Source: Desulfoluna sp. | Lineage (GTDB): Bacteria > Desulfobacterota > Desulfobacteria > Desulfobacterales > Desulfolunaceae | Assembly: GCF_030145185.1 (NCBI RefSeq) | Contig: NZ_JAQYWB010000016.1 | Span: forward strand, 1 to 64,000 | DNA: 64,000 bases | Reading direction: 5' to 3' | Shown here: positions 4,765 through 64,000 of the stretch, piece after piece | How positions within the stretch are numbered: the first letter of the stretch is position 1 | Layout: the number at the start of each line of letters is the position of its first letter | The notes under the pieces: generated by a model | The model's database searches: none | What the model was told of the DNA's origin: nothing | Seen by the model: the letters and a program-made list of their open reading frames with translations, nothing else | Translations under genes and position numbers: made by a program

Positions 4765-6042
4765 TTAGAAGCTGTAGGAGACCTTAGCTGTATAGAGTTC
4801 CCAGTTTTTGGTGTAGTCAGGCCCGATATTTGGGGCAAGCGAAGTTCCATAATTTTTGGTATTGCCATCGGAATTGAGCATGATGGCGCCCCCCTTCATC
4901 TTGTGGCCCTCCACCTTGAGAATCCAGTTTTCCGTGATGTCAAAGCGCAGGGAAAGAGCCAAATCCTTGAGGTAACCGCGGTGTTCTTGGCCATCTGGAT
5001 ACCTGCCATCATCACCATCCTTATTCGTTCGGTCAGCATAATACTCAGAGTAATAGGTTCCCAGCTCAAACCAATCGCAGAAACGATAGGTCCCCATGCC
5101 GTAATACCCTTCACTGTCGAAATCCGATTCAAAGTTTTGATTCATAGGAAGGAATTTAGGCGCCGAAAGCTCATAGTTGATGCGGTTGTATTCTGTGGAC
5201 AGCACCAAGTCACCGATGGCGTACTCTAAGGAGGTGGTCCACCCTGTCTGGGTCACATCGATAAGACAGCTAACAGGATTCTCCTCACTCAAAGCCTTGA
5301 CAGGATTCCTTGTGATATCCCCATCAAAACTCATCTGCCATCCACTCGCCCCGATACGAAACCCTTCCAGGGGGGTCTCCCAGACCAGGCTGCCGACATA
5401 GGTCGCATCCACCTGGTTGTTTGTCACATCGACCCCCAAAGCAACGGGGAACTGATCTTCCAGAAGCCGCATCTCCGCGCCATCGTCTTTAAACTGGTTC
5501 ACCCCGCCCTGGGCGTGGTACTCAAAACTCCCCACAGCCCCTGCGGGCACGTACCCGTAGAGTTCAAACCCGTTCATGGCGTTGATAGAATCTCGCCAGC
5601 CTTCGTTATAGACACTCTGGGGAAGAAGGATCGAGGTCCGGAGCATGTCCACGTCACGACTGGTGTTGTAAAGACCCTGAGGTAACTTGATTTTGCCGGC
5701 CTTGAAGTTGGCCCACTCGGTAAAGGTATAATCGGCATAGGCCCAGTCGATGGTCACCTCGTTGTCGCCCAAGGTGCCAAAGTCCCGGGAAAAGACCTGA
5801 AGGCCGATGCGAAGCCGATCGCTTACGTCGGACGAGAAGTTAAGCCCGCGTTCGTTGAACTGATAAGAACCTCCATCATCCGTGTCTCCGAAAAATTTGT
5901 TATCGGTGGTCATGATATATCCCTGGGAGATAAACCCATGGATATTGACGTTTCCGAGCGCTCCCAATTCATAGGCGCCCACATTTTGTGCCAACAGGAA
6001 AACCAAAAGCCCTGCGAACAGACTGGCCGTTCTTTTCATCAT
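4765..6042 (-). CDS. outer-membrane beta-barrel porin
   Basis: 425 residues from the ATG at 6042, which has GGAGG nine bases upstream. A signal peptide is present (LFAGLLVFLLAQNVGAYE). The mature protein starts NVNIHGFISQGYI and continues as alternating aromatic/polar beta strands (GRLRIGLQVFSRDFG-type, WAYADYTFTEWANFKAGKI), ending AKVSYSF with the C-terminal Phe recognised by the BAM machinery. This is the general look of 14-18-stranded porins; substrate specificity is not readable. The upstream neighbour, 52 bases away, encodes a small phosphate-binding-protein-like secreted protein. That suggests a shared ligand, possibly an oxyanion, but this is inference. Confidence 0.82.
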   Translation of the reverse strand: MMKRTASLFAGLLVFLLAQNVGAYELGALGNVNIHGFISQGYIMTTDNKFFGDTDDGGSYQFNERGLNFSSDVSDRLRIGLQVFSRDFGTLGDNEVTIDWAYADYTFTEWANFKAGKIKLPQGLYNTSRDVDMLRTSILLPQSVYNEGWRDSINAMNGFELYGYVPAGAVGSFEYHAQGGVNQFKDDGAEMRLLEDQFPVALGVDVTNNQVDATYVGSLVWETPLEGFRIGASGWQMSFDGDITRNPVKALSEENPVSCLIDVTQTGWTTSLEYAIGDLVLSTEYNRINYELSAPKFLPMNQNFESDFDSEGYYGMGTYRFCDWFELGTYYSEYYADRTNKDGDDGRYPDGQEHRGYLKDLALSLRFDITENWILKVEGHKMKGGAIMLNSDGNTKNYGTSLAPNIGPDYTKNWELYTAKVSYSF

Positions 6043-6094
6043 CGTCTCAAACCTCCGCATCAAGATAGGAATTTGGATATATTCAAAAAACCGT

Positions 6095-6529
6095 TTAGAT
6101 GGACATTTCGCTTAGGATCTTTACCTGATCCGTGGCGGCGCCGGAGGTCACAAACCCGATGGCCCCTTTGGTTTTTTCTACGAACTCAACGAGATCGCGC
6201 TCTTTTTCAAAACTCAAGGGCATCTGCCCTTCTCCCGTGAACACCTTCTTCTTCCAATGCCGGTTAAAGGTGCTGCGATTTTTTTTGACGTATTTCTTCA
6301 AAAATGCGTCCTGGGTGTCCCCCTTGGTCAGGGTCACAAACACAACCTTCATGCCGTTATTCCACATCGTCACCTTGCCAAGGTAAATGTCCTTGATTGC
6401 CTTCTGCTCAAGAGATGCGACGGGGACACTCCGATTGCCGATAACTCTCAGCTGCTCTGCAAATGCACTGCTCGAAAACAGGCAAAGGATCGCAGCAACC
6501 CACATGCCCCTTAAAACCATTTTCATCAT
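6095..6529 (-). CDS. very small PstS-like periplasmic binding-domain protein
   Basis: 144 residues from the ATG at 6529, with AAGGAG eight bases upstream. After a signal peptide (LCLFSSSAFAE) the sequence LRVIGNRSVP...IKDIYLGKVTMWNNG matches the start of PstS-type phosphate-binding proteins, where the motif 'I..IF.G....W..G' is typical. It ends near TKGAIGFVTSG, also PstS-like. Full PstS proteins are about 300-350 residues, so this is a single-lobe or miniature form. Such small proteins commonly precede a porin in Proteobacteria. Direct phosphate binding is not shown. The AT-rich 6539-6678 gap upstream should hold the promoter of this gene and the porin. Confidence 0.75.
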   Translation of the reverse strand: MMKMVLRGMWVAAILCLFSSSAFAEQLRVIGNRSVPVASLEQKAIKDIYLGKVTMWNNGMKVVFVTLTKGDTQDAFLKKYVKKNRSTFNRHWKKKVFTGEGQMPLSFEKERDLVEFVEKTKGAIGFVTSGAATDQVKILSEMSI

Positions 6530-6678
6530 TCCTTGCACTCCTTAACATTTGGTGGTGAAAATCAGCTGCCAACTATACCAAACAAAACGTATACATATTA
6601 AATAATAGAGCCTTTAAATTAACTTTGTTACCTTATGTGAACTACTAATTCCTTTACGAGGTGTCAACACCATTCGCG

Positions 6679-7194
6679 CTACAAATTTCTCATGGCTTCT
6701 CTCAACGCATCCCGACGCCGCCGAGCCTGCACTTTTAACGGGATCTCATCTGCCCCTTCAGAGACGACATCAATCACTGCCTGACCTTTCTTTGGAAGGA
6801 AAAGGCGAACGGTCCGATCGGGAGATTCCCACACCCTGACCATCCCCTCTGATGCCGCCACTTGCCTTAGGGCCCCATATCGAAGAGAGACAAGAGCCTC
6901 AAGCCTTTCAAGGGTGTCCGACCTCTTGAGGGGCAAAACATAACGTGCCCCCACAAGACGGTCCTCAGCCAATCGATACATAAGGTACGCAGGCCGCTTA
7001 AACAGAGGAACCCGGTAAAGTATGTCACCGTTTCTCATTCGTTTCGGCGCCCGGTCTTCCGAAGCCATCACCTCAAACCGATTCATCCCCCAACGCACAT
7101 TCCGAAAGTCAAACCCTTCGGCAAACGCACGGCCAGAGGCCATAAAAAGGCAGAAAAGACAGACGGTGCTCCTAATGCGGCGACATCTCTTCAT
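6679..7194 (-). CDS. small secreted protein of unknown function
   Basis: 171 residues from the ATG at 7194. The start was chosen because AGGGG lies six bases upstream, inside the 3' end of the kinase gene. A signal peptide (TVCLFCLFMASGRAFAE) is followed by FDFRNVRWGMNRFEVMASE, a motif seen in small periplasmic proteins where 'W.M...EV' opens the mature chain. The rest is mixed beta and charged helix (VQARRRRDALREAMRNL at the C-terminus). I do not recognise a named family. The start overlaps the kinase gene by 23 bases, so translation is probably coupled; it may be a periplasmic partner of that signalling pathway. Confidence 0.7.
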   Translation of the reverse strand: MKRCRRIRSTVCLFCLFMASGRAFAEGFDFRNVRWGMNRFEVMASEDRAPKRMRNGDILYRVPLFKRPAYLMYRLAEDRLVGARYVLPLKRSDTLERLEALVSLRYGALRQVAASEGMVRVWESPDRTVRLFLPKKGQAVIDVVSEGADEIPLKVQARRRRDALREAMRNL

Positions 7195-8860
7195 CGATTC
7201 CCCTGCCGTCCAGAGCATTGCGTATGGATAGGGAGAGCTCCCTGATCTCCAGGGGCTTCATCAGCAAATAGTTAATCCCTGCCGCCGAGACCTCTCCCGC
7301 TGAGACACTGTCGCTGTAGCCGGTGCAGATAATCACCGGCACGTTGGCGCGCAGGGCTTTCACCTTGCGCGCCAGAGCCAGACCGGTCATCTTCGGCATG
7401 GTCAGATCGGTCACAAGGAGGTCGTAAGCCTCAGGCGACGATGAAAAGAGATCCAGCGCCTCCTGACTGCTCGTCACGGCCGTAACGGTGTAGCCCAGAC
7501 GTTCCAGCATGGTCCCCACCATTTCAGCCAAATCGGATTCATCATCGACAAAAAGAATTCGCTCACGGCCTTGAACAAGACCCGCCACAGCCACCGGTTC
7601 CTCTCCGGCGCGTGCGTTGGAGATAGGGAAATAGAGATGAAACACACTGCCCTGTCCCTCCTCGCTTTCCACACGAATCGCCCCCCCATGCACCTTAAGG
7701 ATGCCATGAACCACTGAAAGCCCCATGCCTGTCCCCTGGCCTTTGCCCTTGGTGGTAAAATAGGGGTCAAAAATCCGTTTCTTGACGTCGAGATTCATGC
7801 CGCAGCCGGTATCGGTGACTGAAAGCTTCATGTAGGGGCCCGGCTCCAACTCAATGAACCCATGGACATCCAGCTCGTTGACCGTGACCACGTCGAGCAA
7901 AAGCGAGAGCGTTCCGCCCTCCGGCATGGCATGGGCCGCGTTGGTACATAAATTCATAATGATCTGATGAATCTGCGTGGAATCGGCTTCAATCGGGAAA
8001 ATCTTGGAGGTCATAGACCGCTTGATCTCAATGGTACTGGGCAGGCTGGCTCTTAGCAGCTCCAGGGATTCATCGATAATCTGCTGCATAAAGACCGGTT
8101 TTTTTTCATGCACGGACTGCCGGCTGAAGGAGAGAATATGGCCCACCAGGTTGCGGGCGCGCTGAGACGCTTTGTAGATCTGGTCTATACTTTTTCGGGC
8201 GGGGCTTGCCTCATCCACGTCAAAACGAGCCAGCTCAATGTACCCGAGAATGGCGGCAAGGACATTGTTAAAATCGTGGGCGATGCCCCCGGCAAGGGTC
8301 CCCAACGCCTCCATCTTCTGAGCCTGACGAAGTTGTTCTTCAAGGGACTTCTGCGCGGAGTTATCCCGAATAAGAGTCAGCTTTCGGAAAGGCTCTCCCC
8401 GGCTGTTACGCAAAAGCCAGCTTCTCACCTGGGCGGGAACCCGGCTGCCGCCTTTTCGGATAAACTCTTTTTCGTACTCCCCGGTCTCGCCGTTGGCCAA
8501 GAGGGCAGGAGTTACGACACGGGATTCAAGCAGGCGCCATTTTTCAGGGGTCATCTGCTGCTCAAATTTGTCACACACCTCCCCGTGAGGATATCCGACC
8601 ATCTCAAGAAAGGCAGGGTTGGCATCCTCAATACGCCCATTGAGATCTGAAAATAAAATCCCGTCGCGACTTGTCTTGAAAAGCTCTTTGTATCGTTCAG
8701 AGTCCACTAAGGGTTCGTGACCGTCACGGTCCAACGCTTCCGCTGGGCACACTCGCGCTTGCGTGGTTATCCCGGCTGATTCCAGGAGTTGCCGGGCACG
8801 GGCCAGGGTCTTATCATCACCATCTACCACGAGAACCACTCGATTACTGTCCTGGTTCAA
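7172..8860 (-). CDS. hybrid sensor histidine kinase (PAS-HisKA-HATPase-REC)
   Basis: About 562 residues. No transmembrane segment is visible, so it is likely cytoplasmic. From the N-terminus: a short receiver-like stub (VVLVVDGDDKTLARARQLL), a PAS domain (YKELFKTSRDGILFSDLNG...), HisKA with the phospho-acceptor His in GGIAHDFNNVLAAILGY, HATPase_c with N box (MNLCTNAAHAMPEGG), G1 (DTGCGM) and G2 (GKGQGTGMGLSVV), and a C-terminal receiver (ILFVDDESD, phospho-Asp in LLVTDLTMPKMTG). The H-box type is that of PAS kinases with C-terminal receivers common in Deltaproteobacteria. I chose the TTG at 8858-8860 because GAAGGGGAT lies upstream; an in-frame ATG at 8917 is possible but has no ribosome-binding site. 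The phosphotransfer target is unknown. Confidence 0.88.
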   Translation of the reverse strand: MNQDSNRVVLVVDGDDKTLARARQLLESAGITTQARVCPAEALDRDGHEPLVDSERYKELFKTSRDGILFSDLNGRIEDANPAFLEMVGYPHGEVCDKFEQQMTPEKWRLLESRVVTPALLANGETGEYEKEFIRKGGSRVPAQVRSWLLRNSRGEPFRKLTLIRDNSAQKSLEEQLRQAQKMEALGTLAGGIAHDFNNVLAAILGYIELARFDVDEASPARKSIDQIYKASQRARNLVGHILSFSRQSVHEKKPVFMQQIIDESLELLRASLPSTIEIKRSMTSKIFPIEADSTQIHQIIMNLCTNAAHAMPEGGTLSLLLDVVTVNELDVHGFIELEPGPYMKLSVTDTGCGMNLDVKKRIFDPYFTTKGKGQGTGMGLSVVHGILKVHGGAIRVESEEGQGSVFHLYFPISNARAGEEPVAVAGLVQGRERILFVDDESDLAEMVGTMLERLGYTVTAVTSSQEALDLFSSSPEAYDLLVTDLTMPKMTGLALARKVKALRANVPVIICTGYSDSVSAGEVSAAGINYLLMKPLEIRELSLSIRNALDGRGIDEEMSPH

Positions 8861-8917
8861 TGCTATCCCCTTCCCTCTTTTATGAAAAAGCTCATTAAGC
8901 ACAGCACGCGCATACAT

Positions 8918-9643
8918 CTATAAGTATATCGGCAACTGACTCAATTATCTTTAACTCACAGCGGTAGAATCATCAGCAAACGGACCGTTCCACCGAAGCA
9001 TTATAGCCAGCAAAAGCCTACCTATCCCGGATATTTCATGAGAAAACAATCAGGACTAAAGAATAATTTGTAATGACAGTTCTTTGCAGTCATATTTTCA
9101 GTCGTTTCAAAAATGCAAAATGTAATCCACGGTATTCTGTTTGATTTTCTCACCCTTCGGGCGAGCCGAGTGCACTCATCTGCTGCGTTATCAGAGTCTT
9201 GAGGTAAACCACTACATCTTCAGCTCTGATGCCTTGCATATGAGCGCACCCAACTCGTGAAATATCCGGGCTATATTCAAATCAGGTATTTATGATGAAG
9301 GTCGGCCCGCACTCTGAGACAACAACGCAAAATGACACAAACGATTATCCCTCACAAAATGTCACCTGATCATCACTCAATTTTCATGAGTTCATAAACA
9401 CCTGTCTCTAACATACCTGTTTCATGGGTGCCACCTTTCCCTCTCCATGGCCCTCTCGCTTTCTTAATTTAGGAAGTCCCCCTCCCACCGGTGGTGACCC
9501 TCCGCGGGCGATATGCCGTCAAAAAAATAAACAGGAGGCCTATCCCCTGACTGTTCCTTGAAAAAGCAAAAGAAGAGCCCGGAGGCCCGGAGGCCAGGAA
9601 AACCCCTTGCAATTGGCCAACCCATGTTTATCTTTGTGACACC
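8918..9643. other. long intergenic region containing an inverted-repeat element
   Basis: About 700 bases between the divergent kinase and ClpX-like genes. Apart from the 245-base element described at 9026-9270, I see no gene. The last 80 bases before 9644 lead into the ClpX-like gene; a clear promoter is not visible. Confidence 0.5.
9026..9270. repeat. MITE-like element with 17-bp terminal inverted repeats
   Basis: The ends are CCCGGATATTTCATGAG (9026-9042) and CTCGTGAAATATCCGGG (9254-9270), an inverted repeat with one mismatch. Both sides are flanked by CTAT, compatible with a 4-bp target duplication. The interior contains GATTTTCTCACCCTTCGGGC and no ORF. Related copies lie at 23701-23838 (left part, also preceded by CTAT) and 33209-33283 (shortened). 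The structure is that of a non-autonomous transposable element, but no matching transposase is in the window. Confidence 0.7.
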
Positions 9644-11431
9644 ATGAGCCCATATAATGAAAATATACCCGACCCCAAGGAGCTCGAAAAGGAGATCGGT
9701 CATTTCCTCAATCAAAAGTTTGGTGGAAACGTAAAGATCGTCTCTCCCTTCTCGACACCCGAGCGGGACAAAAATGAAGACAAGAGCGTCAGAGCAGAGA
9801 AGAAGAGCTTCAGCCTCGACTTCCACATGAAGCCCGAAGAACTGGTTGCGTATCTGGACCGGTTCATCATCCGTCAGGAGAGGGCCAAAGCCGTTCTGGC
9901 AACCAAAATCTGCACTCACTTCAACCGCATCCGTCACCTCGAACAAGAGGGCCGAAAAGCCTCTGGAATTGTGGGGGGGATCAAAAATAACGTCCTGATG
10001 ATCGGTCCCACCGGGGTCGGCAAGACGTACATGATCAAGCTCATTGCCGACAAAATAGGGGTCCCCTTTGTGAAAGGGGACGCCACCAAATTCACGGAAG
10101 CCGGCTATGTGGGCGGCAACGTCGAAGACCTGATCCGTGACCTGGTACACGAAGCCGATGACCACATAGAACGGGCCGAATACGGCATTGTCTATATTGA
10201 TGAAGTCGACAAAATTGCCGCGTCCCCCCATGCCATGGGATCCGATATTTCCCGAACTGGCGTCCAGCGAGCCCTTCTCAAGCCCATGGAAGAGACCGAC
10301 ATCGAGTTGAAGGTCCCCCATGACCCCGTCTCCATGCTCAAAGAGATGGAGCGCTACCAGAAGACCGGGGCCCTTGAAAAGCAGGTGGTCAACACAAGAA
10401 ACATCCTCTTCATCATGAGTGGCGCCTTCAGTGGCCTCTCAGAGATCGTCGAAAAGCGAAACCGAAAAAAAAGCATCGGTTTCGGCGCCTCGCTCCACGA
10501 CGGCAACAACACCGACTCCATTTTAAAAGAACTGCGCACCGAAGACCTCGTAGAATACGGCTTTGAAACGGAATTTATCGGCCGCCTCCCCGTTCGCACC
10601 ACCCTGGAGACCCTTTCCGAAGACGACCTGTACGAGATCCTCAAAAATCCTAACAATCCGGTCATCCTGAGCAAGAAGCTGGACTTTTCCGCCTACGGAA
10701 TCGCCATCCGCTTCTCAGATGAAATCCTCCGGGAGATTGCACGGCGAGCACACCTGGAAAACACGGGTGCGCGCGGACTGGTCAGTGCCGTAGAAGAGGT
10801 GCTGCTCCCCTTCGAGACCCGCCTCCCGTCTCTGAGCATCCGAGAATTCCCCGTCACCCTTGAGGCCGCAACCGACGCCAGCGAAACGCTGAACTCCCTG
10901 ATCGACCCGAACCGAAAAGAGATCTGGCAACAGCATTTCAAACGCCTCGAGGAAGAAGAAACAGCCTACCTCTCCTCGTACATTGAAAACCACTGGGAAC
11001 AGCTCACTATAGAGCACCTCCTGCCCCATACCCCTTGGCGTTCCGGGCTTACCGCAACGCTCTGTATCAGCAGGGGAATTGCCACAGACGCTGCCATAGA
11101 GACGATTCATTCACACTATGAAGAGATTAAAAAACTTGAGGTGAATTTTTTCTCGAAATTTGGTATGCATATTCTGTTTGATGAAGAGGCAGTGGATTTT
11201 CTCATGGAGCAGATCCTGACAGCCGGTGCCACCGGAGATGAGATGTTCACCAAACTGACCGGTGACTTTGAGCTGGGGCTGGCCCTTGTGCGAGAAAAAA
11301 CCGAAAAAACACATTTCTTCATCACCCGAGAGGCCCTTTTATCGCCCGAACGTTTTTTAGAAGACCTTATTAAAGAGGCTCTCATTAAAAAAGACGGCGC
11401 CATAAGGCTCCCTGACAACACGAACACATAA
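9644..11431 (+). CDS. ClpX-like AAA+ ATPase without zinc-binding domain
   Basis: 595 residues. The N-terminal 60 residues are unlike the ClpX C4 zinc finger and hold no Cys cluster. The AAA+ module has Walker A GPTGVGKT (121-128), the ClpX pore loop GYVG (154-157), Walker B with IVYIDEVDK (about 182-190), an IGF tripeptide (278-280) where ClpX has the loop that docks on ClpP, and a sensor-2 GARGL further on. The order and spacing match ClpX rather than HslU. The C-terminal 190 residues or so extend beyond the ClpX small domain, with no family I recognise. It may unfold substrates for ClpP or act alone. It is 595 residues against about 420 for ClpX. No clpP or adaptor gene is adjacent; the next gene is ahbC, 111 bases downstream. 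Confidence 0.85.
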   Translation: MSPYNENIPDPKELEKEIGHFLNQKFGGNVKIVSPFSTPERDKNEDKSVRAEKKSFSLDFHMKPEELVAYLDRFIIRQERAKAVLATKICTHFNRIRHLEQEGRKASGIVGGIKNNVLMIGPTGVGKTYMIKLIADKIGVPFVKGDATKFTEAGYVGGNVEDLIRDLVHEADDHIERAEYGIVYIDEVDKIAASPHAMGSDISRTGVQRALLKPMEETDIELKVPHDPVSMLKEMERYQKTGALEKQVVNTRNILFIMSGAFSGLSEIVEKRNRKKSIGFGASLHDGNNTDSILKELRTEDLVEYGFETEFIGRLPVRTTLETLSEDDLYEILKNPNNPVILSKKLDFSAYGIAIRFSDEILREIARRAHLENTGARGLVSAVEEVLLPFETRLPSLSIREFPVTLEAATDASETLNSLIDPNRKEIWQQHFKRLEEEETAYLSSYIENHWEQLTIEHLLPHTPWRSGLTATLCISRGIATDAAIETIHSHYEEIKKLEVNFFSKFGMHILFDEEAVDFLMEQILTAGATGDEMFTKLTGDFELGLALVREKTEKTHFFITREALLSPERFLEDLIKEALIKKDGAIRLPDNTNT

Positions 11432-55295: not shown

Positions 55296-56135
55296 ATGAT
55301 CCAACTGAATCACGTGCGCTTTGCATACCAACGCAAGCGCCCCCACTTTTCTGACGTCTCCCTCAGCGTTGAGGCGGGCACGATTTCCGGCCTGCTTGGA
55401 AAAAACGGCGCAGGAAAGACGACCCTGTTAAAATTGATGGCCGGCCTCCTCCATCCGGCAAGCGGAACCTGCGTTACCTTTGACTCCCCCGCTCATAAAA
55501 GGCGGCCTGGGATGCTCGCAAAGCTCTTTTTCATTCCCGAAGAATTTCAGCTCCCGCCGGTATCCATCTCCCGATTCGTCACACTCCACGCACCATTTTA
55601 TCCCCACTTCGACGCAGGATGGTTCCATGAACAAATCGGCCGCTTCGGCCTGAGCCCTTCGGACAGACTGCCTGCCCTCTCTTTCGGGCAACGGAAAAAG
55701 GTCCTCATCGCCTTCGGTCTTGCCGCAAACACCCGGCTCCTCCTCCTGGATGAGCCCACCAACGGGCTGGACATCCCATCCAAGGGCATGTTCCGAAAAA
55801 TGGTGGCAGCCTCCATGCGGGAGGACCGGGCCATCCTCATCTCCACCCATCAGGTCAAAGACGTGGAGAACTTAATCGACCGGGTCGTGGTGCTGGATGA
55901 AGGCCGCATTGTCTTCGAGCAGTCCATGCAGGAGGTCTCCAGATGCCTTGAAATGACCCACCTTGCCGATCTGCCCGACACCGCCGTCTATCACGAAAGG
56001 GGAATCGCCGGTTACACCGTGGTCCAAAAAAACGAGACCGGCGTCGACTCAGCCATTGACCTTGAGCTGCTCTTCAACACCATTCTTACCAGCCCCGATG
56101 CGATGCACACCTGCTTTCAGGGAGACTTGCCATGA
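55296..56135 (+). CDS. ABC transporter ATP-binding protein (YtrA-operon type)
   Basis: 279 residues. Walker A GKNGAGKTT, signature LSFGQRKKV, Walker B LLLLDEPTNGLD, switch His in ISTHQVKDVE. The C-terminal 60 residues are the extra part common in ABC-2 exporter ATPases. The start follows CAGGAGACACC. It overlaps the permease gene by 4 bases (ATGA). The organisation ATPase-permease-GntR regulator is that of YtrA-type operons, which often respond to cell-envelope stress or antibiotics; that function is only suggested. Confidence 0.88.
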   Translation: MIQLNHVRFAYQRKRPHFSDVSLSVEAGTISGLLGKNGAGKTTLLKLMAGLLHPASGTCVTFDSPAHKRRPGMLAKLFFIPEEFQLPPVSISRFVTLHAPFYPHFDAGWFHEQIGRFGLSPSDRLPALSFGQRKKVLIAFGLAANTRLLLLDEPTNGLDIPSKGMFRKMVAASMREDRAILISTHQVKDVENLIDRVVVLDEGRIVFEQSMQEVSRCLEMTHLADLPDTAVYHERGIAGYTVVQKNETGVDSAIDLELLFNTILTSPDAMHTCFQGDLP

Positions 56136-56890
56136 CAACCCAGGAGACTTTTGAATTCAGACGTTTTATGCTTTTACTTCGACACGAACTGCTGCTTGAT
56201 TTTAAGGAAAAAATCATCGCCGCCGCAGTCATTGTGGGCCTGCTCTCGTTTCTTCTTTTCTTCAGCAAGGTCATCGGCATCTTACCTGGCCTCCATGTCA
56301 ACTCATTTGGGTTCTACCTGCTCCTGGCAGGATATCTCTCCACCGCAACCGCGTTTAAAAGGCTCCATGATAAAACCCAGGGCTGGCTCTACCTGACACT
56401 CCCGGCATCCACCCTTGAAAAATTTCTCTGCCGCCTGGGGCTGACGTCCATCGGTTTTGTCGCAGGAGTTGCCCTGATTTTTGCGCTCTTCTCACAGGTG
56501 GCGTCGGCGGTCTCATTTTGGATGCACGGGCAAGCACTGCCGGTCTTTCACCCGCTTGATCCCATGAACCTTAAAATCATCCTGTTTTATCTCATCACCC
56601 ACGCCCTTTTCTTTCTGGGGTCCCTTGTCTTCAAGAGCCATCAATTTTTGAAAACCACACTCTGCATCTGGCTGTGCCTTGGTTTTATTGCGCTCTTTAC
56701 AGGGATTCTTGGCTGGAGCGCCTTCAACGCCCCCCATGCCAGCGGATACCATCTCTCCTTTTTCCTTACCCCCGGGCAAACAAGTCATGGACACCTCATC
56801 CTCAAACTCGTCAAAGGAGCCATAACCTACGGGCTGGCACCGTTTTTCTGGTTTATCAGCTACCTGAAGCTCAAAGAGTATGAGGTGTAG
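56132..56890 (+). CDS. ABC-2-type transporter permease
   Basis: 252 residues with about six hydrophobic helices (for example IIAAAVIVGLLSFLLFF; FYLLLAGYLSTATAF; IWLCLGFIALFTGILGW). The pattern LHDKTQGWLYLTLPAS after the second helix is typical of ABC-2 permeases in YtrA-type operons. Start and stop are tightly linked to both neighbours: a 4-base overlap upstream, and the regulator begins at the next base downstream. Substrate unknown. Confidence 0.78.
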   Translation: MTTQETFEFRRFMLLLRHELLLDFKEKIIAAAVIVGLLSFLLFFSKVIGILPGLHVNSFGFYLLLAGYLSTATAFKRLHDKTQGWLYLTLPASTLEKFLCRLGLTSIGFVAGVALIFALFSQVASAVSFWMHGQALPVFHPLDPMNLKIILFYLITHALFFLGSLVFKSHQFLKTTLCIWLCLGFIALFTGILGWSAFNAPHASGYHLSFFLTPGQTSHGHLILKLVKGAITYGLAPFFWFISYLKLKEYEV

Positions 56891-57265
56891 ATGAACTTTT
56901 CCAACCATCAGGCCATCTATCTTCAGATCGCCGATCAAATCTGCCATGCCATCCTCACGGGCACCCGAAAGGCCCAGGAGAGGCTCCCGTCTGTCCGGGA
57001 TCTGGCCGTGGAGATTGAGGTGAACCCCAACACCGCAGCCAGAGCATATACCCACCTCCAGGACCGACAGATCGTCTTCAACAAACGAGGCATCGGGTAC
57101 TTCATCACAGAGGAGGCCCGGGAGATCATCCTTTGCGAAAAAAGGGAGCACTTTCGTTCCACAGAGCTGCCCCGGCTCTTCAGGATGATGGATCTCCTGG
57201 ACATAGGCATGGACACCCTTCAAAAACTTTATGAGGATGACCCCAATACGGAGGATAAAGCATGA
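56891..57265 (+). CDS. GntR-family transcriptional regulator, YtrA subfamily
   Basis: 124 residues: an N-terminal winged helix (AIYLQIADQICHAILTGTRK; LPSVRDLAVEIEVNPNTAARAYTHL) and only about 50 further residues, the short effector-less tail that defines YtrA-type GntR proteins. It likely represses its own operon through the inverted repeat at 55258-55279. Its TGA overlaps the ATG of a small membrane ORF. Confidence 0.9.
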   Translation: MNFSNHQAIYLQIADQICHAILTGTRKAQERLPSVRDLAVEIEVNPNTAARAYTHLQDRQIVFNKRGIGYFITEEAREIILCEKREHFRSTELPRLFRMMDLLDIGMDTLQKLYEDDPNTEDKA

Positions 57266-57423
57266 AGCCAAGCAATCTCTGGCTCCTCATCGGAGCGATC
57301 TTTCTGCTTATCGGCATCACCGTCCTGGTTTTGACATTCTGCCGGCAGGCTCAAAACATCAAAAAAAAGGCCCCGAATCCCCGGAGCCTTTTTTTCTCAT
57401 ACCCCGCCTGCTGGGCCTGTTAG
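57262..57423 (+). CDS. small membrane protein, 53 residues
   Basis: A short ORF whose ATG (57262) overlaps the regulator's TGA (ATGA), so translation would be coupled. It encodes one strong transmembrane helix after a short polar start (MKPSNLWLLIGAIFLLIGIT then VLVLTFC) and a Lys-rich tail. The tail is encoded across the terminator at 57361-57395 and the ORF ends 4 bases inside the convergent gene. The helix and overlap argue that it is real; the passage through the terminator argues for caution. Confidence 0.5.
   Translation: MKPSNLWLLIGAIFLLIGITVLVLTFCRQAQNIKKKAPNPRSLFFSYPACWAC
57361..57395. terminator. bidirectional rho-independent terminator
   Basis: An eight-A run, a stem AAGGC-CCG/CGG-GCCTT with a small bulge, then seven T. 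It sits between the converging YtrA-type operon and the unknown minus-strand gene and would serve both. Confidence 0.8.
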
Positions 57424-57731
57424 CCTCCACGCTTGGAGGCTTTGATGGGGTTGAGTTTCTTCTCCGTGGACCCGCTGACCGCAAGGGCAGCCACAATATG
57501 ATGGTTTTCGTTCCTGAGCTTTTGCGTGTCGTAGCCCATGGACTCCAGGGTGTCGATAACCCGGCTCCGGTCCACCCCGTAACGATTCACATCGGCCGTG
57601 GGCCGGGCCACCTTATCGGGGGTTGTCAGGTAAAGCCCCTTTTCATCGATGGCCATCACCTGTCTGATACCGTTGACTTCAATCTCATCGATCACCATCT
57701 CACGGCTCGTTCCGAAGCGATTGGGTTCCAT
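57420..57731 (-). CDS. small cytoplasmic protein of unknown function
   Basis: 103 residues from the ATG at 57731, which follows AAAGGAGAGAGC; an ATG further upstream lacks a ribosome-binding site. There is no signal peptide or membrane helix. The sequence is beta-rich at the start (MVIDEIEVNGIRQVMAIDEKGLYL) and helical later (RSRVIDTLESMGYDTQKLRNE), ending in a basic tail. I do not recognise a family. It is a lone gene convergent with the YtrA-type operon. Confidence 0.65.
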   Translation of the reverse strand: MEPNRFGTSREMVIDEIEVNGIRQVMAIDEKGLYLTTPDKVARPTADVNRYGVDRSRVIDTLESMGYDTQKLRNENHHIVAALAVSGSTEKKLNPIKASKRGG

Positions 57732-58407
57732 AAAGCTCTCTCCTTTATTCACATTGAGGTAGATCACGCAGGGGGTGCCCGGCCCCTCAAGGACTCCTGC
57801 CATTGAGGGTTCCGAACCACTCGTTTCGTATTACGCTAAATATTTATGACACCATGAATATTGTTTGGCAAGCCTAAAATATTCCACGGTATGGGCAAGG
57901 GTGCCTGACCACTGCGTCGCCGCACCTTTCGATTCGGCAAACACTCCGCAAAACGTAAAACCAGACATAGCTCTCCCTGTGGCAGCCCCAAATCTCCAAG
58001 ATATCTTCATCATACACCAGCAGTTAATCATTCGAATATTAGAGCGATTTCGCATAAAAGAAAAATATCTGATCTCTTTTGCCCACTATTTTTGCCTATC
58101 TAAGTGACCGGGTTCATTACCACAAAAAAGCCAGCCTCCGCCTGGTTGAACGCATCACGCATTCGGCTCCCTACAAAATGTTTGACTTGCCAAAGTTAGT
58201 CACGTAATAAACTATCGGTCAAAACGATTATTCTTTGTCTCAACTAACTTTTGCCATTCTCTTTTGCGGATACAATGGCTCGGCCACGTGAAAGACGGAA
58301 ACAGGTATCGCGCTCTCCACCCGATTGGACCCCTCTGTTTTGACCCTGATCCTCAGGATATCAGAATCGATACCGTTGCCCCTCTGCCCCGGCTGGAAAG
58401 ACGTCTT
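57732..58407. other. intergenic region before the kexin-like gene
   Basis: About 675 bases, AT-richer in the middle. Short frames on both strands have no ribosome-binding site or recognisable product. It contains CTCAACTAACTTTTG at 58239-58253, shared with the region upstream of the M16 peptidase gene. CAAAGTTAG (58191-58199) could pair with CTAACTTTTG downstream. No interspersed repeat is present. Confidence 0.45.
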
Positions 58408-61400
58408 ATGCGCCATCTTCATTATCTCTTGATCCCGCTCCTCTGTCTGGGTCTGGGAGGGTCGCCCCTTTATGCCGCCCCCCCGTCGGCCATGGATTAC
58501 AAAGCGTTTCTCAAAACAAAAAAAACCGGGACCGCACCCCGAATCCCCTTGGACGCCCCAGGGGCCGAAAAAATCCGGGAACCTGAAAAGGCCACCGAAG
58601 AGTGGGTGGTCAAGGTCACCCCGGAGACATCGGTCCAAGACCTGGCCCGTGATCTCGGGGCCGAATATGTCGGCCCGGTCGGTTCTCTGCCCCGGACCCA
58701 CCTCCTCCGTCTGACGAACTCATCGGAGGCCGGTACGTCCCGTGTGGTACGTCGCCTCATGCGCGAGGACAAGCGTATCCTCTGGTACCGTCAGCAAAAA
58801 GCAAAATGGAATTTCAGCGACGATGAGGTCAAAACGCCCGACTTCAATGACCCCCTGGCCAAGGATCAATGGCATCTCAACGGTTCGTATGAAGGCAGCG
58901 ACATCCACATCCGAGAGGCCTGGGAAAAGGGATACACCGGAGAGGGCATCCTCGTGGGGGTGGTGGATGACAGCCTCCAGGGGAGCCACCCGGATCTGAA
59001 CGCAAACTATTTTCCCGAACTCAGCCACGACTTCAACGACAAAGACGATGACCCCTCCCCTGCCATCAAAGGCAAATACGGCACCGACAAACACGGCACC
59101 AGTGTGGCGGGTGTGGTGGCTGCGGTGGCCAACAACGGTATATGCGGCGTAGGGGCGGCCTACGACGCAAAGGTCAGCGGGCTTCGGCTCATCAGTGGCC
59201 CCACCACCGACGCCGACGAGGCCACGGCCCTCTCCTACCACCCAGAGGAGATCGACATCTACTCCAACAGCTGGGGCCCCCACCCCACCATGCTCGTGGC
59301 CCCTGGCCCCCTCTATGAAGAAGCCATCGCCGAGAGCATCAAAACCGGTCGAAACGGCAAGGGAAATATCTACGTATTCGCCGCGGGCAACGGCAAACAA
59401 TACGACAACAACGTCAACTACAACGGCTACGCCTCGTCAAGATACGCCATCGCCGTCGGGGCCGTGGACATCAACGGGGTCCAGTCCTACTACAGCGAGC
59501 CCGGCGCCTCCATGCTGATTACCGCCCCCAGCAACGGAGATGAGATCGGCATCACCACCACGGACCTCACCGGCCAGAACGGCTACAGTGCCACAGAATG
59601 CACCAACGACTTCGGCGGCACCTCATCGGCCACCCCCCTGGTCTCCGGGGTAATTTCCCTTTTGCTTCAGGCCAAACCCGAGCTCACCTGGCGGGACGTG
59701 CAGGAGATCCTCGTGCACACCGCCACCCAAAACGACCCGGAGGATGAAGACTGGACAAACAACGGCGCGGGCCTCCACGTCAACCACAAATACGGATTCG
59801 GCCTGGTCAATGCCGAGGCCGCCGTGGACCGGGCCACAGCCCCGGACTGGACGACCCTGCCCCCTGCCGTAGAGCTTCCATACGGCCCCGTGGAGGTCAA
59901 CCAGCCCGTGCCGGACTTTGACGAGGCTGGGGTGTCCTCCACCCTTCATGTCACCCAGGATCTGCGCATGGAACACGCCGAGGTGGTCCTCACCGCCGTC
60001 CACCCCTTCCGCGGGGACTTTACCGTCACCCTCACCTCCCCTTCGGGCACAAAAAGCGTCCTGGCCGAAACCCGAAAAGACAGCAAGACCAACTATCTCA
60101 GATGGAAGTTCACCACCGTCCGCACTTGGGGTGAGAGCTCACAAGGAGACTGGACGCTCACCGTCGCGGACAACCACAGCGGGGACACCGGCAGCTTCAA
60201 CTCCTGGCACCTCAACCTTTACGGAAGCCTGGCGGAAAATGAAAACCAACCGCCCCTGCCTTCTGCCGACAACGCCCAGACGGCTCGCGAGACCGCCGTC
60301 ATCCTCCAACCCCTTGAAAACGACAGGGATTTAAACGGCGACGAGCTCACCCTCACCGAGGTAGAGTCCCCGGCAAACGGCACGGCCGTCATCTCTGAAG
60401 ACGGGAAAACCATCGCCTACACCCCGGATGCCGGATTCGCGGGCCTGGATCGTTTCACCTACACGGTCCGCGACAACGCAGTCTCTGCCACCGCCGCCAT
60501 CAGCGTAGCCGTGGGGCAGGAAGAGACCCCCTTTGCCTCCGAGCAAAACGACCTGCTGATCCCCGACGGCAAAGGCAAAGCCGTCTCCACCATCCACGTC
60601 AAGCGTGGGGGTATGTTCATGGGTGCCCGGGTACGGCTGAATATCGAGCACTCCTACGTCAACGACCTCAAAGCCACCCTCATCTCCCCCCAGGGTACCC
60701 GGATTCCCCTGTTCAACAGGCTCCAGGGGATGGTCAAGGGTAACTTTCTCGCCGGTAACTTCGTTGATACCGTCTTCGATGACGAGGCGGACCTCATGAT
60801 CATCGAAGGAGAGCCCCCCTTCACCGACGCCTACCGGCCGGTGATCCCCTTGAGCGGACTCTACAAAGAGCCTGTCTTTGGGCAGTGGCAGCTGGAGGTG
60901 GAAGACAGCGTCAAACTCGCCCAGGGCAAACTTAAAGACTGGGAGCTCACCCTCCGATACGCCCCCATGAGCGATGACACCGCCCCTGTGGCCAAAGATG
61001 ACACGGCCGAGATCTTCAAGAAGCCCGTCATCATCCCGGTGCTGGCCAACGATTTTGACTACAACGGAGACGCGCTCACCCTCACCGACCCCGGCACCCC
61101 GGAACACGGTACCGTCGAGATCACTGGCGACGGCATTCGCTACACCCCGGACAAAGGGTTCAAAGGCGAAGATGCCTTCACCTACACCCTGTCCGACGGA
61201 ATCAAGGATGCCACAGCAACGGTCACCGTCACCGTGAAAGGAAACCGCGCCCCCGAAACGGATAATGACGCCTCGGCCACCGCCGCAGGTGCCCCCATTG
61301 ACATTCGGGTCTTAGAAAATGACACCGACGCCGATGGAGACCCCCTCACCATCACCGACGTCACCGCGAAGACGGCCTCCGGAACCGCCACCGTCACAGA

Positions 61401-62886
61401 GGACGGGCTCCGTATCCATTACGTGCCCGCCGACGGATTCACCGGCAGAGACAGCTTCACCTACACCATCAGCGACGGAGAGGCCACCGCCACAGCTGAA
61501 CTCACCGTCTCCGTGGGCGAAGGGAGCCTCTTTTACCCCCATGTGGAAAAACCCGCCTTGATCATCCCCGACGATGACCCCACGGGGGTCCGCTCCGTGA
61601 TTCACGTCCCGGCAGGCGGCATTGTCCAGGACATCGACGTGACCCTCAACATCCGCCACGACTTCAACCGAGACATCCGGGCCGAGCTGATCTCCCCTTC
61701 CGGCACCCACGTCAAGTTGCTGGGCTACGTCGAGCAGATGCTCTATCAACACCACTTCACTGGCACGATTCTCGATGACGAGGCCCCCAACGCCATCGAG
61801 CCCGGCGGCCAACCCTACACCGGGCGCTTCCGTCCCGCCGAGCCCCTCTCCAAGCTGGACGGGGAGCCTGTCTACGGCGACTGGACCCTGGTTCTCTACG
61901 ACAAGGGGGAATACATCGACGGTCGCTTAGACTCCTGGGACCTCTCCATCGGCCTGACCCCTTTGTCTGAAAACGTCCCCCCCACCGTGAAAAACGAATC
62001 CGTGCACATGGCAGGGGAGTTTGTCACCCTGGCCGTACTGGACAACGACTTTGACTTCAATGGAGACGCCCTGTCCGTCACCTCCGTCTCCAAACCGGGG
62101 CACGGCACGGCCCAGGCCAACGCCAACCACACAATCACCTATACCCCGGCCCCGGGATTCTCCGGTCCTGATAGCTTCACCTACACCGTCAGCGACGGCA
62201 AAGCCGAGACCCAGGGCGTGGTGACCCTTACCGTGGGCGAGACACAACTCACCGCCCTTCGAGACGGAGCGCCCCTTCCCATTCCCGACGGCGACCCCCA
62301 AGGGCTCTCCTCCACCGTCTGTGTCACCCATCCGGGATGGGTCCACGACCTGAACCTTAACCTCAACCTGAAACATCGCTGGATCTACGACCTCACCTTG
62401 GAGCTGATCTCCCCTAAAGGGACCCGGGTACGCCTGGTGAGTCAGGTCGGCGGAGCCCGCTACGACTACGCCAACACCACCTTTGACGACGAAGCCGCCG
62501 TGGGCGTCAAGCAAGGGATATCCGCCATCCCCGCTGCGGGCTGGGACGACTACCCAGGCCCCCGCAACGCCTCATACATCCCCGTAGAGCCCCTGAGTCG
62601 CTTCGACGGAGAACCCGTAGCGGGCACCTGGACCTTAAAAGTGGTGGATGAAGAGAAGAGAAAGAGCGGCACCCTGGGCGACTGGTCCCTGCGATTCACC
62701 CTGGTGCCAGACTCCGAGTCCCCGATTCTTTCGGAGGCCACCCCTGAGGCCATCATCCAAGGCCTGAAAATCCAGGTGCGTATCCCGGTTGAAGACCCCA
62801 AAACACTGGACCACATCACCGACGGCCGGGTGGACATGAAAGATGTCCTCTATTTGTTCAAAAAAACGGCAAAAACCGAGCCCTGA
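58408..62886 (+). CDS. secreted kexin/furin-like subtilase with four P-domains and four Ig-like domains
   Basis: 1492 residues from the ATG at 58408, with GGAAAG upstream; the longer frame is not supported. A signal peptide (LIPLLCLGLGGSPLYAA) and a propeptide-like region run to about 150. The S8 catalytic domain has Asp187 (VGVVDDSLQGSHPDL), His229 (DKHGTSVAG), oxyanion Asn328 (AAGNG) and Ser406 (GGTSSATPLVSG). The VDD, the NYNGYASS stretch and the following P-domain place it in the kexin/furin group. Four P/Homo B domains alternate with four cadherin- or VCBS-like modules, each with a variant of GDxLTLT...YTPxxGFxGxDxFTYTxxDG. Kexin-type enzymes cleave after basic residues, but specificity here is unknown. 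It ends 66 bases before another large secreted protein gene. Confidence 0.9.
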   Translation: MRHLHYLLIPLLCLGLGGSPLYAAPPSAMDYKAFLKTKKTGTAPRIPLDAPGAEKIREPEKATEEWVVKVTPETSVQDLARDLGAEYVGPVGSLPRTHLLRLTNSSEAGTSRVVRRLMREDKRILWYRQQKAKWNFSDDEVKTPDFNDPLAKDQWHLNGSYEGSDIHIREAWEKGYTGEGILVGVVDDSLQGSHPDLNANYFPELSHDFNDKDDDPSPAIKGKYGTDKHGTSVAGVVAAVANNGICGVGAAYDAKVSGLRLISGPTTDADEATALSYHPEEIDIYSNSWGPHPTMLVAPGPLYEEAIAESIKTGRNGKGNIYVFAAGNGKQYDNNVNYNGYASSRYAIAVGAVDINGVQSYYSEPGASMLITAPSNGDEIGITTTDLTGQNGYSATECTNDFGGTSSATPLVSGVISLLLQAKPELTWRDVQEILVHTATQNDPEDEDWTNNGAGLHVNHKYGFGLVNAEAAVDRATAPDWTTLPPAVELPYGPVEVNQPVPDFDEAGVSSTLHVTQDLRMEHAEVVLTAVHPFRGDFTVTLTSPSGTKSVLAETRKDSKTNYLRWKFTTVRTWGESSQGDWTLTVADNHSGDTGSFNSWHLNLYGSLAENENQPPLPSADNAQTARETAVILQPLENDRDLNGDELTLTEVESPANGTAVISEDGKTIAYTPDAGFAGLDRFTYTVRDNAVSATAAISVAVGQEETPFASEQNDLLIPDGKGKAVSTIHVKRGGMFMGARVRLNIEHSYVNDLKATLISPQGTRIPLFNRLQGMVKGNFLAGNFVDTVFDDEADLMIIEGEPPFTDAYRPVIPLSGLYKEPVFGQWQLEVEDSVKLAQGKLKDWELTLRYAPMSDDTAPVAKDDTAEIFKKPVIIPVLANDFDYNGDALTLTDPGTPEHGTVEITGDGIRYTPDKGFKGEDAFTYTLSDGIKDATATVTVTVKGNRAPETDNDASATAAGAPIDIRVLENDTDADGDPLTITDVTAKTASGTATVTEDGLRIHYVPADGFTGRDSFTYTISDGEATATAELTVSVGEGSLFYPHVEKPALIIPDDDPTGVRSVIHVPAGGIVQDIDVTLNIRHDFNRDIRAELISPSGTHVKLLGYVEQMLYQHHFTGTILDDEAPNAIEPGGQPYTGRFRPAEPLSKLDGEPVYGDWTLVLYDKGEYIDGRLDSWDLSIGLTPLSENVPPTVKNESVHMAGEFVTLAVLDNDFDFNGDALSVTSVSKPGHGTAQANANHTITYTPAPGFSGPDSFTYTVSDGKAETQGVVTLTVGETQLTALRDGAPLPIPDGDPQGLSSTVCVTHPGWVHDLNLNLNLKHRWIYDLTLELISPKGTRVRLVSQVGGARYDYANTTFDDEAAVGVKQGISAIPAAGWDDYPGPRNASYIPVEPLSRFDGEPVAGTWTLKVVDEEKRKSGTLGDWSLRFTLVPDSESPILSEATPEAIIQGLKIQVRIPVEDPKTLDHITDGRVDMKDVLYLFKKTAKTEP

Positions 62887-62952: not shown

Positions 62953-64000
62953 ATGATGAATAAAAAAATATTTCGATTCCTCCTCCCCTTTGCCGCCGTG
63001 CTCCTGCTGGCAACTGCCAGCGCCGCCCTGGCCGCGGACTACGTGGTGAGTGGCTCCACGGATGTGGATGGCCGCTACACCCTCACCGAACGAATCCAAG
63101 GTAAAAAACCGGTCTACAGCAACGGAACCCATGACCTGGCCTTTGACGACAGTTATGGCTATTGGCAGATTCAGCCAAAAGACGATGTCTTTGACTGCTT
63201 ATACTATGATGAGGCCGAGGCGGCATCGGAGACACCCCCCTTAAAAAACTATGCCCAATATAATGGTGACAGCGAAGGCGGTGCCACGGTAGCCGAGGCC
63301 ACGGGAACCCCCAATCCCGAACTCACCTACAATAAAAAAACCTTTATAGAAACCGACACCGACGACGGCAGCCTGGCCCCAGCCCCCCTTGCCGTCACCC
63401 TTGCCAATGACACCTTCACCGGAGACAACGGGGCCGTGTATGACGAAACCAAAGCCGTCATTGCCAATCTTCCCGAGGGCCTCACCGCCACCCTCACCAA
63501 GGTCAGCGACACCGAGCTCTCCTTTGCCCTGGCCGGACAGGCCACAGCCCACGACACCGACGTGACGAACCTTAACGTCACCTTTACGGCCGACGCCTTT
63601 GCCGCAAGCGATGACGTCTCAAAGGTAACAGGGGCGATCACTTCCGATCTCACCATCGATTTTATCCGCACCCACACCGTAGGGAGCGGCAAGGACTTTT
63701 CCACCCTTGCAACAGCCATCGCAGGGGCTGGGGCCCGGGACCGCCTGGTGCTTTTCGGCACCTTCACCGAGACCGGCCTTGCCATCGACAAGGACCTGAC
63801 CCTTGCGGCTGAAGAAGGCGCTTCCGCTACGCTCCAGGGGTACGTCCCACCCTCGGATGATTCCACAAACGACCGCCTGCTGACCATCGATGAAGGTGCC
63901 TCCGTCTCCATCAGCCAGCTCTTCATTCAACACTCAATCACAACGGCCAAAGGATCCGCGGCCATCTGGAACAAAGGAACCCTGACCCTTTCCGACTGCA
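62953..64000 (+). CDS. large secreted protein with Ig-like and beta-helix regions, 3' end outside window
   Basis: An open frame to the right edge, 349 codons visible. AGGAG lies five bases before the first ATG (62953) and eight before the second (62956). A signal peptide (FAAVLLLATASAALAAD) is followed by a short unknown domain, an Ig-like region (PLAVTLANDTFTGDNGAVYD...VTNLNVTFTADAF) and the start of a pectate-lyase-like beta helix (HTVGSGKDFSTLATAIAGAG...AIWNKGTLTLSDC). Such proteins are exported adhesins or surface enzymes. It follows the kexin-like protease by 66 bases and may be its substrate or partner; this is inference only. The C-terminal anchor or sorting signal is not visible. Confidence 0.75.
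   Translation, partial: MMNKKIFRFLLPFAAVLLLATASAALAADYVVSGSTDVDGRYTLTERIQGKKPVYSNGTHDLAFDDSYGYWQIQPKDDVFDCLYYDEAEAASETPPLKNYAQYNGDSEGGATVAEATGTPNPELTYNKKTFIETDTDDGSLAPAPLAVTLANDTFTGDNGAVYDETKAVIANLPEGLTATLTKVSDTELSFALAGQATAHDTDVTNLNVTFTADAFAASDDVSKVTGAITSDLTIDFIRTHTVGSGKDFSTLATAIAGAGARDRLVLFGTFTETGLAIDKDLTLAAEEGASATLQGYVPPSDDSTNDRLLTIDEGASVSISQLFIQHSITTAKGSAAIWNKGTLTLSDC

Follow-up and report, generated by a model that had tools for sequence, protein, structure and literature searches.

Does a bacterial protease with a kexin/furin-type catalytic domain and four P-domains still cleave after basic residues, and what are its additional P-domains for? The question is raised by an open reading frame (ORF) of Desulfoluna sp. 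at 58408-62886 (+ strand) of the window, that is, the whole 64,000-nucleotide stretch analysed, which covers bases 1-64000 of a contig 88.5 kb long; the draft genome measures 5.79 Mb in 152 contigs. The ORF encodes 1492 residues from an ATG start, in a single open frame without stops; an in-frame TTG at 58264 would add 48 residues, and the ATG start yields a signal peptide that looks clean by eye. Both acids of the furin S1 pocket are replaced in this protein, and the basic autoprocessing site of its relatives is lost. We tentatively favour, with a probability of roughly 0.45, the reading that it is a secreted serine protease of kexin/furin fold and altered specificity, carried on a stalk and possibly docked on a cohesin-like protein, docking being the weakest part.

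Catalytic domain, S1 pocket and pro-domain junction

Residues ~147-611 were compared with proteins of solved structure. The best matches were furin (E 1.7e-97, 330.6 bits) and kexin (5.4e-89), followed by Aeromonas ASP (108.7 bits, 1.4e-30) and Mirolase (91.5 bits, 2.3e-25). The S8 triad Asp187/His229/Ser406 and the oxyanion residue Asn328 are intact and a P-domain is attached, which by sequence places the enzyme in MEROPS S8B (kexin/furin), as the initial annotation had proposed. The regions concerned are:

58597..58809, + strand: S8 pro-domain, residues 64-134 (PF16470, 25.4 bits, just under the cut-off of 25.5)
58798..58833, + strand: junction of pro-domain and catalytic domain, KAKWNFSDDEVK, where the basic autoprocessing site of relatives is lost
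58846..59835, + strand: peptidase S8 catalytic domain of the kexin/furin group, with triad and oxyanion residues as above and Pro293 and Asn339 at the S1 positions

Furin residue numbers were assigned by counting along the alignment by hand, from a start number that we assume; on this count Asp-Asp falls at 153-154 and His at 194, where we take them to lie. Furin Asp258 corresponds to Pro293 of the window protein, and furin Asp306 to Asn339. Among relatives the Asp258 position is occupied by Asp in 16 of 17 and by Glu in the other, and the Asp306 position by Asp in all 16 that cover it (the fragment G176f was left out of this count). Both furin residues touch ligands in the S1 region, according to the accessible text of PMC8453481. 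Furin Asp264 is replaced by Pro299, the same residue as in most close relatives, and the window protein retains furin Asp154 (as Asp188) and Glu236 (as Glu271). These two retained residues we take to belong to the S2 and S4 pockets, respectively.

The change in the pocket is accompanied by one at the pro-domain junction. The pro-domain itself is 31-36% identical to seven of eight aligned relatives and 28% identical to the eighth (80 columns). The first self-cleavage of furin falls in the linker between pro-domain and catalytic domain, and its preferred site is R-X-K/R-R, as far as the accessible part of PMC12405487 describes it. At the aligned P1 position of the cleavage site, the 15 relatives with a pro-domain carry Arg (14) or Lys (1), with Arg at P4 as well in 13 of them, whereas the window protein carries Asp, in the stretch Asn-Phe-Ser-Asp; G031 and G035, which have no alignable pro-domain, were left out of the count.

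Since the enzyme has lost its two S1 acids along with the basic autoprocessing site, it has most likely ceased to cleave after Arg or Lys. Cleavage after basic residues, which the initial annotation had proposed to look for, is accordingly not what the sequence predicts; the acidic S1 pocket and the basic autoprocessing site by which a basic-specific proprotein convertase would be recognised are both missing, and the protein should not, on its sequence, be filed as one. Joint loss of pocket and site is the trace that a change of specificity would leave, here in one lineage.

Module order and two kinds of P-domain

Pfam, which places Peptidase_S8 at residues 178-465 and recognises four Big_9 stretches, and the PF01483 scores together confirmed the ORF as a large kexin-like protease with four P-domains (P1 to P4). 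The chain order is signal peptide, pro-domain, S8 catalytic domain, P1, Big_9, P2, Big_9, Big_9, P3, Big_9, P4 and an EF-hand-like C-terminus. A motif-based script set the module positions. Besides the regions given above, they are:

58408..58479, + strand: Sec signal peptide spanning residues 1-24, recognised by eye in the translated sequence
59878..60228, + strand: P1, a P-domain of the catalytic-partner type (PF01483, 94.8 bits)
60244..60516, + strand: Big_9 module 1 (Pfam)
60547..60966, + strand: P2, a stalk-type P-domain with an FDDEA loop (PF01483, 53.7 bits)
60979..61242, + strand: Big_9 module 2 (Pfam)
61243..61518, + strand: Big_9 module 3 (Pfam)
61552..61962, + strand: P3, stalk-type, with an LDDEA loop (PF01483, 42.0 bits)
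61972..62238, + strand: Big_9 module 4, the best Big_9 stretch (residues 1189-1275), predicted as strands
62269..62709, + strand: P4, stalk-type, with an FDDEA loop (PF01483, 60.4 bits)

The alternation of P-domains with Ig-like modules that had been described from the sequence holds broadly; it is not strict, with two tandem Big_9 modules between P2 and P3 and none between the catalytic domain and P1. The modules, described earlier as cadherin/VCBS-like, proved cadherin-like (Big_9/tandem-95), and VCBS was not called. A long chain with a signal peptide (by eye) and a stalk (Pfam modules) is supported, and display at the surface on that stalk is possible; no membrane anchor is evident by eye.

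PF01483 matched the genome four times, each time within the protease ORF and above the 21-bit cut-off, and no further match was found at E ≤ 0.001 in the 5.79 Mb searched. Repeats 2-4 thus score as P-domains too. P2, P3 and P4 are 39-41% identical to one another, 27-29% identical to P1 and 37-42% identical to the second P-domain of the relative G208 (G208_P2). In an unrooted tree of 28 P-domains (G031_P and G035_P left out), the window P1 groups with the catalytic-partner P1 of relatives (support 100/99), and P2-P4 group with G208_P2 and G273a_P2 across a branch from P1 supported at 99/99; the G273a_P2 branch is very long, which makes its placement unsure. P2-P4 and G208_P2 share an inserted loop with [FL]DDEA, a motif that G273a_P2 lacks. 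Recent duplication, suggested for comparison by the initial annotation, is contradicted by these identities and by the separate branch. Judged from tree and alignment, P1 is the enzyme's own partner, and P2-P4 are of an older stalk type, neither recent duplicates nor copies of P1. The fold was modelled for P4 among the stalk-type copies (mean predicted local distance difference test score, pLDDT, 67.6). Foldseek returned ASP and furin as best matches to this model, which superposes on the furin P-domain with Z 15.7 and a root-mean-square deviation of 1.7 over 121 aligned residues. Within this one chain, the P-domain bound up with catalysis is distinct from the kind used as a stalk module.

With the window genome counted each time, homologues of the catalytic domain plus P1 were found in 19 of 291 sampled genomes of the class (E ≤ 1e-30) and, at E ≤ 1e-60, in 15 of 389 genomes of the order and 2 of 395 of the phylum; one relative is from Desulfococcaceae bacterium HSG8, of the order Desulfobacterales. 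PF01483 was absent at E ≤ 0.001 from the five other genomes of the genus that were searched and present in two genomes of other genera of the family, with two P-domains each. These pairs (L045 7550-9829 and L046 6659-8914) lie on proteins that by eye are M6-type metallopeptidase-like.

In a Pfam scan of nine relatives, the order pro-domain, S8, P, Big_9, LamG was found in HSG8, G246, G162 and G172, and pro-domain, S8, P, Big_9, P, Big_9 in G208; all five have an alignable C-terminal tag. G126 consists of pro-domain, S8 and P plus the tag, and G273a has two P-domains, three Big_9 modules and LamG and ends at a contig edge. No scanned relative exceeded two P-domains, against four in the window protein. 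Since G208 carries two P-domains in the same module order, the architecture builds on one already present in the family and does not stand by itself. Two other long chains were seen. L035 (G273:C62, 4194-9947, - strand) encodes a 1918-residue kexin-like protease with a P-domain, Big_9, BACON and FG-GAP repeats, and with Glu at the furin 258 position; L037 (G059:C33, 3-5099, - strand), open at both contig ends, has S8 and a P-domain in a chain whose repeats are RTX-like by eye.

The C-terminal tag and the accessory stretch

Behind P4 the protein ends in a short tag, and two genes follow that bear on how the enzyme might be attached:

62710..62883, + strand: C-terminal tag, in which residues 1468-1479 (DHITDGRVDMKD) form the one EF-hand-like loop; it aligns with the ends of eight relatives
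62953..64000, + strand: visible part of downstream gene 2 (full gene at contig 62953-65274, 773 residues), a beta-helix protein with an EF-hand-like C-terminal loop
contig 65419-67278: gene 3, cohesin-like, beyond the window and two genes downstream of the protease

A profile built from ten tags, protease and gene 2 included, retrieved from the genome the protease (2.0e-18), gene 2 (1.8e-15) and two weak matches (0.23 and 1.1). The gene 2 match was first read as a tag shared with the protease; this reading was dropped, because the gene 2 match loses its significance when gene 2 is excluded from the profile, and its end is described here as EF-hand-like only. A control profile of the eight relatives' tags, made without any window-genome sequence, was run against the 2868 ORFs of the loci analysed and recovered the protease with 13.8 bits (E 0.005); the protease tag is therefore kin to those of the relatives. 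When the last 59 residues were searched against the genome, the protease was the sole match. The loop, lying near a cohesin-like gene, is a possible candidate for surface attachment.

Protease, gene 2 and gene 3 lie in an accessory stretch: contig ~57.7-70.3 kb (12.6 kb) is missing at this site from two species of the genus, whose matching flanks are separated by ~350 bp in G002 and by ~520 bp in G006 (comparison over 40 kb per species, matches >150 bp counted). Gene 2 has a beta-helix match over the cut-off, EF-hand matches below the cut-off at its end, and a choice-of-anchor Q domain. The stretch further holds a substrate-binding protein and a permease of the ATP-binding cassette (ABC) type. 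Promoter-like sites in it are no more frequent than chance (2, against a chance mean of 4.1); no inverted repeats of at least 25 bases were found, no transfer RNA in 20 kb of L033, and no integrase was recognised by eye among ORFs of at least 250 residues from contig 62900 onward. At its left edge lies a small conserved gene (window 57420-57803, - strand; 79% in G002, 78% in G006) with a weak UBA_3 match below the cut-off. Just upstream of the stretch, window 55296-57265 encodes an ABC transporter ATPase and a protein without a Pfam match, beside a GntR-type regulator.

Gene 3 is the genome's only match to Cohesin (PF00963) at E ≤ 10, and a weak one; its own score fails the family cut-off, and kinship to Cohesin comes from its homologues. 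Counting its own genome, 18 of 291 genomes of the order carry homologues of its N-terminal domain. Gene 3 was aligned with 17 of 19 homologues (L088 and L089 left out); 12 of these 18 rows match Cohesin, and the row of gene 3 is one of those that do not. The family profile found 15 PDB chains (best E 8.1e-5, seven at E ≤ 0.006), the best 12 being ten with scaffolding, anchoring or cohesin names and two endoglucanases, and the other three LptD. The CFI-box sorting motif NF041763 scores 11.6 bits at the gene 3 end, below the cut-off of 15.9, and 12.8 in the sister homologue; a literature search for the CFI-box with sorting returned no paper. The homologue in G004, of the same genus, reaches 24.7 bits for Cohesin (cut-off 24.1) and has a choice-of-anchor U domain. 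At that locus (L126, G004:C267:14000-33000, 4782-11165) genes with ends that are EF-hand-like by eye, two of them with HAF repeats, precede the cohesin/choice-of-anchor U gene, and an ORF that is TonB-receptor-like by eye lies upstream. The protein ends in G004 were not found by the tag profile at E ≤ 0.05 and are not dockerins by Pfam.

Weighing the explanations

In the reading that we favour, the chain would be exported and folded with the help of its pro-domain, which would then be cut off, activation taking place at a site other than the basic one of relatives. P1 would stabilise the catalytic domain, as in furin, and the four Big_9 modules and three stalk-type P-domains would act as a spacer for the enzyme. 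Calcium is the probable ligand of the C-terminal loop, which may also dock on the cohesin-like product of gene 3. Specificity would most likely be neutral, no longer for Arg or Lys and probably broader. The enzyme would serve to break down or reshape proteins on the cell surface or within a biofilm.

Several results count against this reading. On the enzyme's side, single Lys residues remain close to the junction, and the changes in pocket and junction are seen in one lineage. A non-acidic S1 pocket is not unique among such S8 proteins, since both acids are missing from three of eight more distant rows (G272a, G272b, G018, G060a, G060b, G059, G193 and G252). The other five carry an acid where furin has Asp306; where furin has Asp258, all eight lack one. 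In the catalytic tree (G176f and G165f left out), the window end branch of 0.81 is tied with G273b as the longest of 16 (median 0.38); it is faster than most, not out of range. Structure prediction for pro-domain, catalytic domain and P1 gave a mean pLDDT of 34.4 from two sequences and is unusable. On the side of docking, gene 2 scored 7.7 bits (E 0.39) with the control profile, and its C-terminus is 14% identical to that of the protease. Dockerin type I (PF00404) matched neither the tag nor anything else in the genome at E ≤ 10, although the C-terminus of the relative G690 reaches 18.9 bits (cut-off 22.9). Type I dockerins typically have two repeated F-hand loops; the tag shows one, with Ile at loop position 3. 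Against the PDB the tag profile matched EF-hand proteins as readily as dockerins (best E 0.02). Gene 3 itself scores 12 bits for PF00963 (cut-off 24.1, E 0.7), its isolated N-terminus matches no Pfam family, and a phmmer search of the PDB with that N-terminus yielded a single match, weak and irrelevant, and no cohesin. On this evidence the tag does not merit the label of dockerin, though it may function like one.

These docking results feed the alternative in which the same protease of altered specificity has a C-terminal loop that is a free calcium-binding or secretion tag, next to a cohesin-like gene that encodes an independent adhesin. The single loop, the missing PF00404 match, the generic EF-hand matches and the dissimilar gene 2 end all suit it, as does the finding that no gene-3-like cohesin lies at the relatives' protease loci searched, with some contigs short and a profile of the gene 3 family only. 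Against this, the protease, the EF-hand-ended gene and gene 3, which alone in the genome shows even a weak likeness to cohesins, adjoin in one accessory stretch, and genes with EF-hand-like ends (by eye) lie ahead of the cohesin gene in the sister species. Six genomes with a tagged relative (G246, G208, G162, G172, G173 and G126) are moreover among the 34 of 146 with a PF00963 match; as to the other two tagged relatives, G690 lies outside the order searched and G325 is not among the matches listed (unsampled or matchless). We consider separate parts possible, if doubtful. The broader proposal of a natural furin-type specificity switch, with S1 acids and own site changed in step, inside an accessory kit in which the protease and perhaps the beta-helix protein dock through one-loop tags on a cohesin-like surface protein, is unlikely in our estimate.

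An ordinary basic-specific bacterial kexin with a longer stalk would explain the overall similarity to furin and the retention of Glu271 and Asp188, presumably in S4 and S2; with both S1 acids and the basic junction lost, unlike in close relatives, it is improbable. The protein could instead be an adhesin, inactive or barely active, that uses its S8 and P-domains for binding: its stalk is long, its end branch ties for the longest, and S8-domain proteins are counted as adhesion-related in syntrophic sulfate reducers in the accessible part of PMC10553843. A chain that keeps its catalytic residues and pro-domain fits this poorly, and we regard it as quite improbable. An assembly error or a gene in decay after recent loss of function would agree with a draft of 152 contigs, with functional positions that differ from those of relatives and with the long end branch. 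The frame is open without stops, and the repeats were not made by misassembly, because P2-P4 are only ~40% identical; an artefact of this kind is highly improbable.

If the favoured reading holds, loss of the S1 acids together with the basic site would show how furin-type specificity can be left behind, and the paired changes in pocket and site are directly testable. Binding between tag and cohesin-like protein would reveal a small cohesin-based complex built round a protease.

Comparison with known systems

None of the papers listed by our literature searches names a multi-P-domain kexin beside a cohesin, which is no proof of absence from print. The window protein shares with furin and Kex2 (MEROPS S8B) an S8 domain followed directly by a P-domain, aligned over residues 147-611, and a pro-domain in front; it differs in its replaced S1 acids, in having no basic site at the relatives' autoprocessing position, and in its three extra P-domains, four Big_9 modules and EF-hand-like tag. 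Aeromonas sobria ASP (3hjr) is a bacterial enzyme structurally close to Kex2, according to the accessible text of PMC6697317. Its similarity to the window protease is far lower than that of furin or kexin, as the scores above indicate. ASP is not known to have a repeated P/Ig stalk.

Sulfate reducers partnered with anaerobic methanotrophic (ANME) archaea have cohesin/dockerin and S8-domain proteins that PMC10553843, in its accessible part, lists as adhesion-related and transferred between clades. Those cohesin-dockerin proteins belong to syntrophic consortia, and that part of the paper does not link a kexin-type protease to a cohesin; its adhesion proteins give a setting, not proof, for the window protease. 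Nearer in architecture is the HSG8 protease (L010, 957 residues), which shares the order pro-domain, S8, P, Big_9 and an EF-hand-like C-terminal tag, and differs by a LamG module, a single P-domain and conserved S1 acids. Closest of those found is the kexin-like protease (979 residues) of G208, a genome from the taxonomic order of the window genome, with pro-domain, S8, P, Big_9, P and Big_9 and an alignable C-terminus; it has two P-domains and, in contrast to the window protein, keeps both S1 acids and the basic junction.

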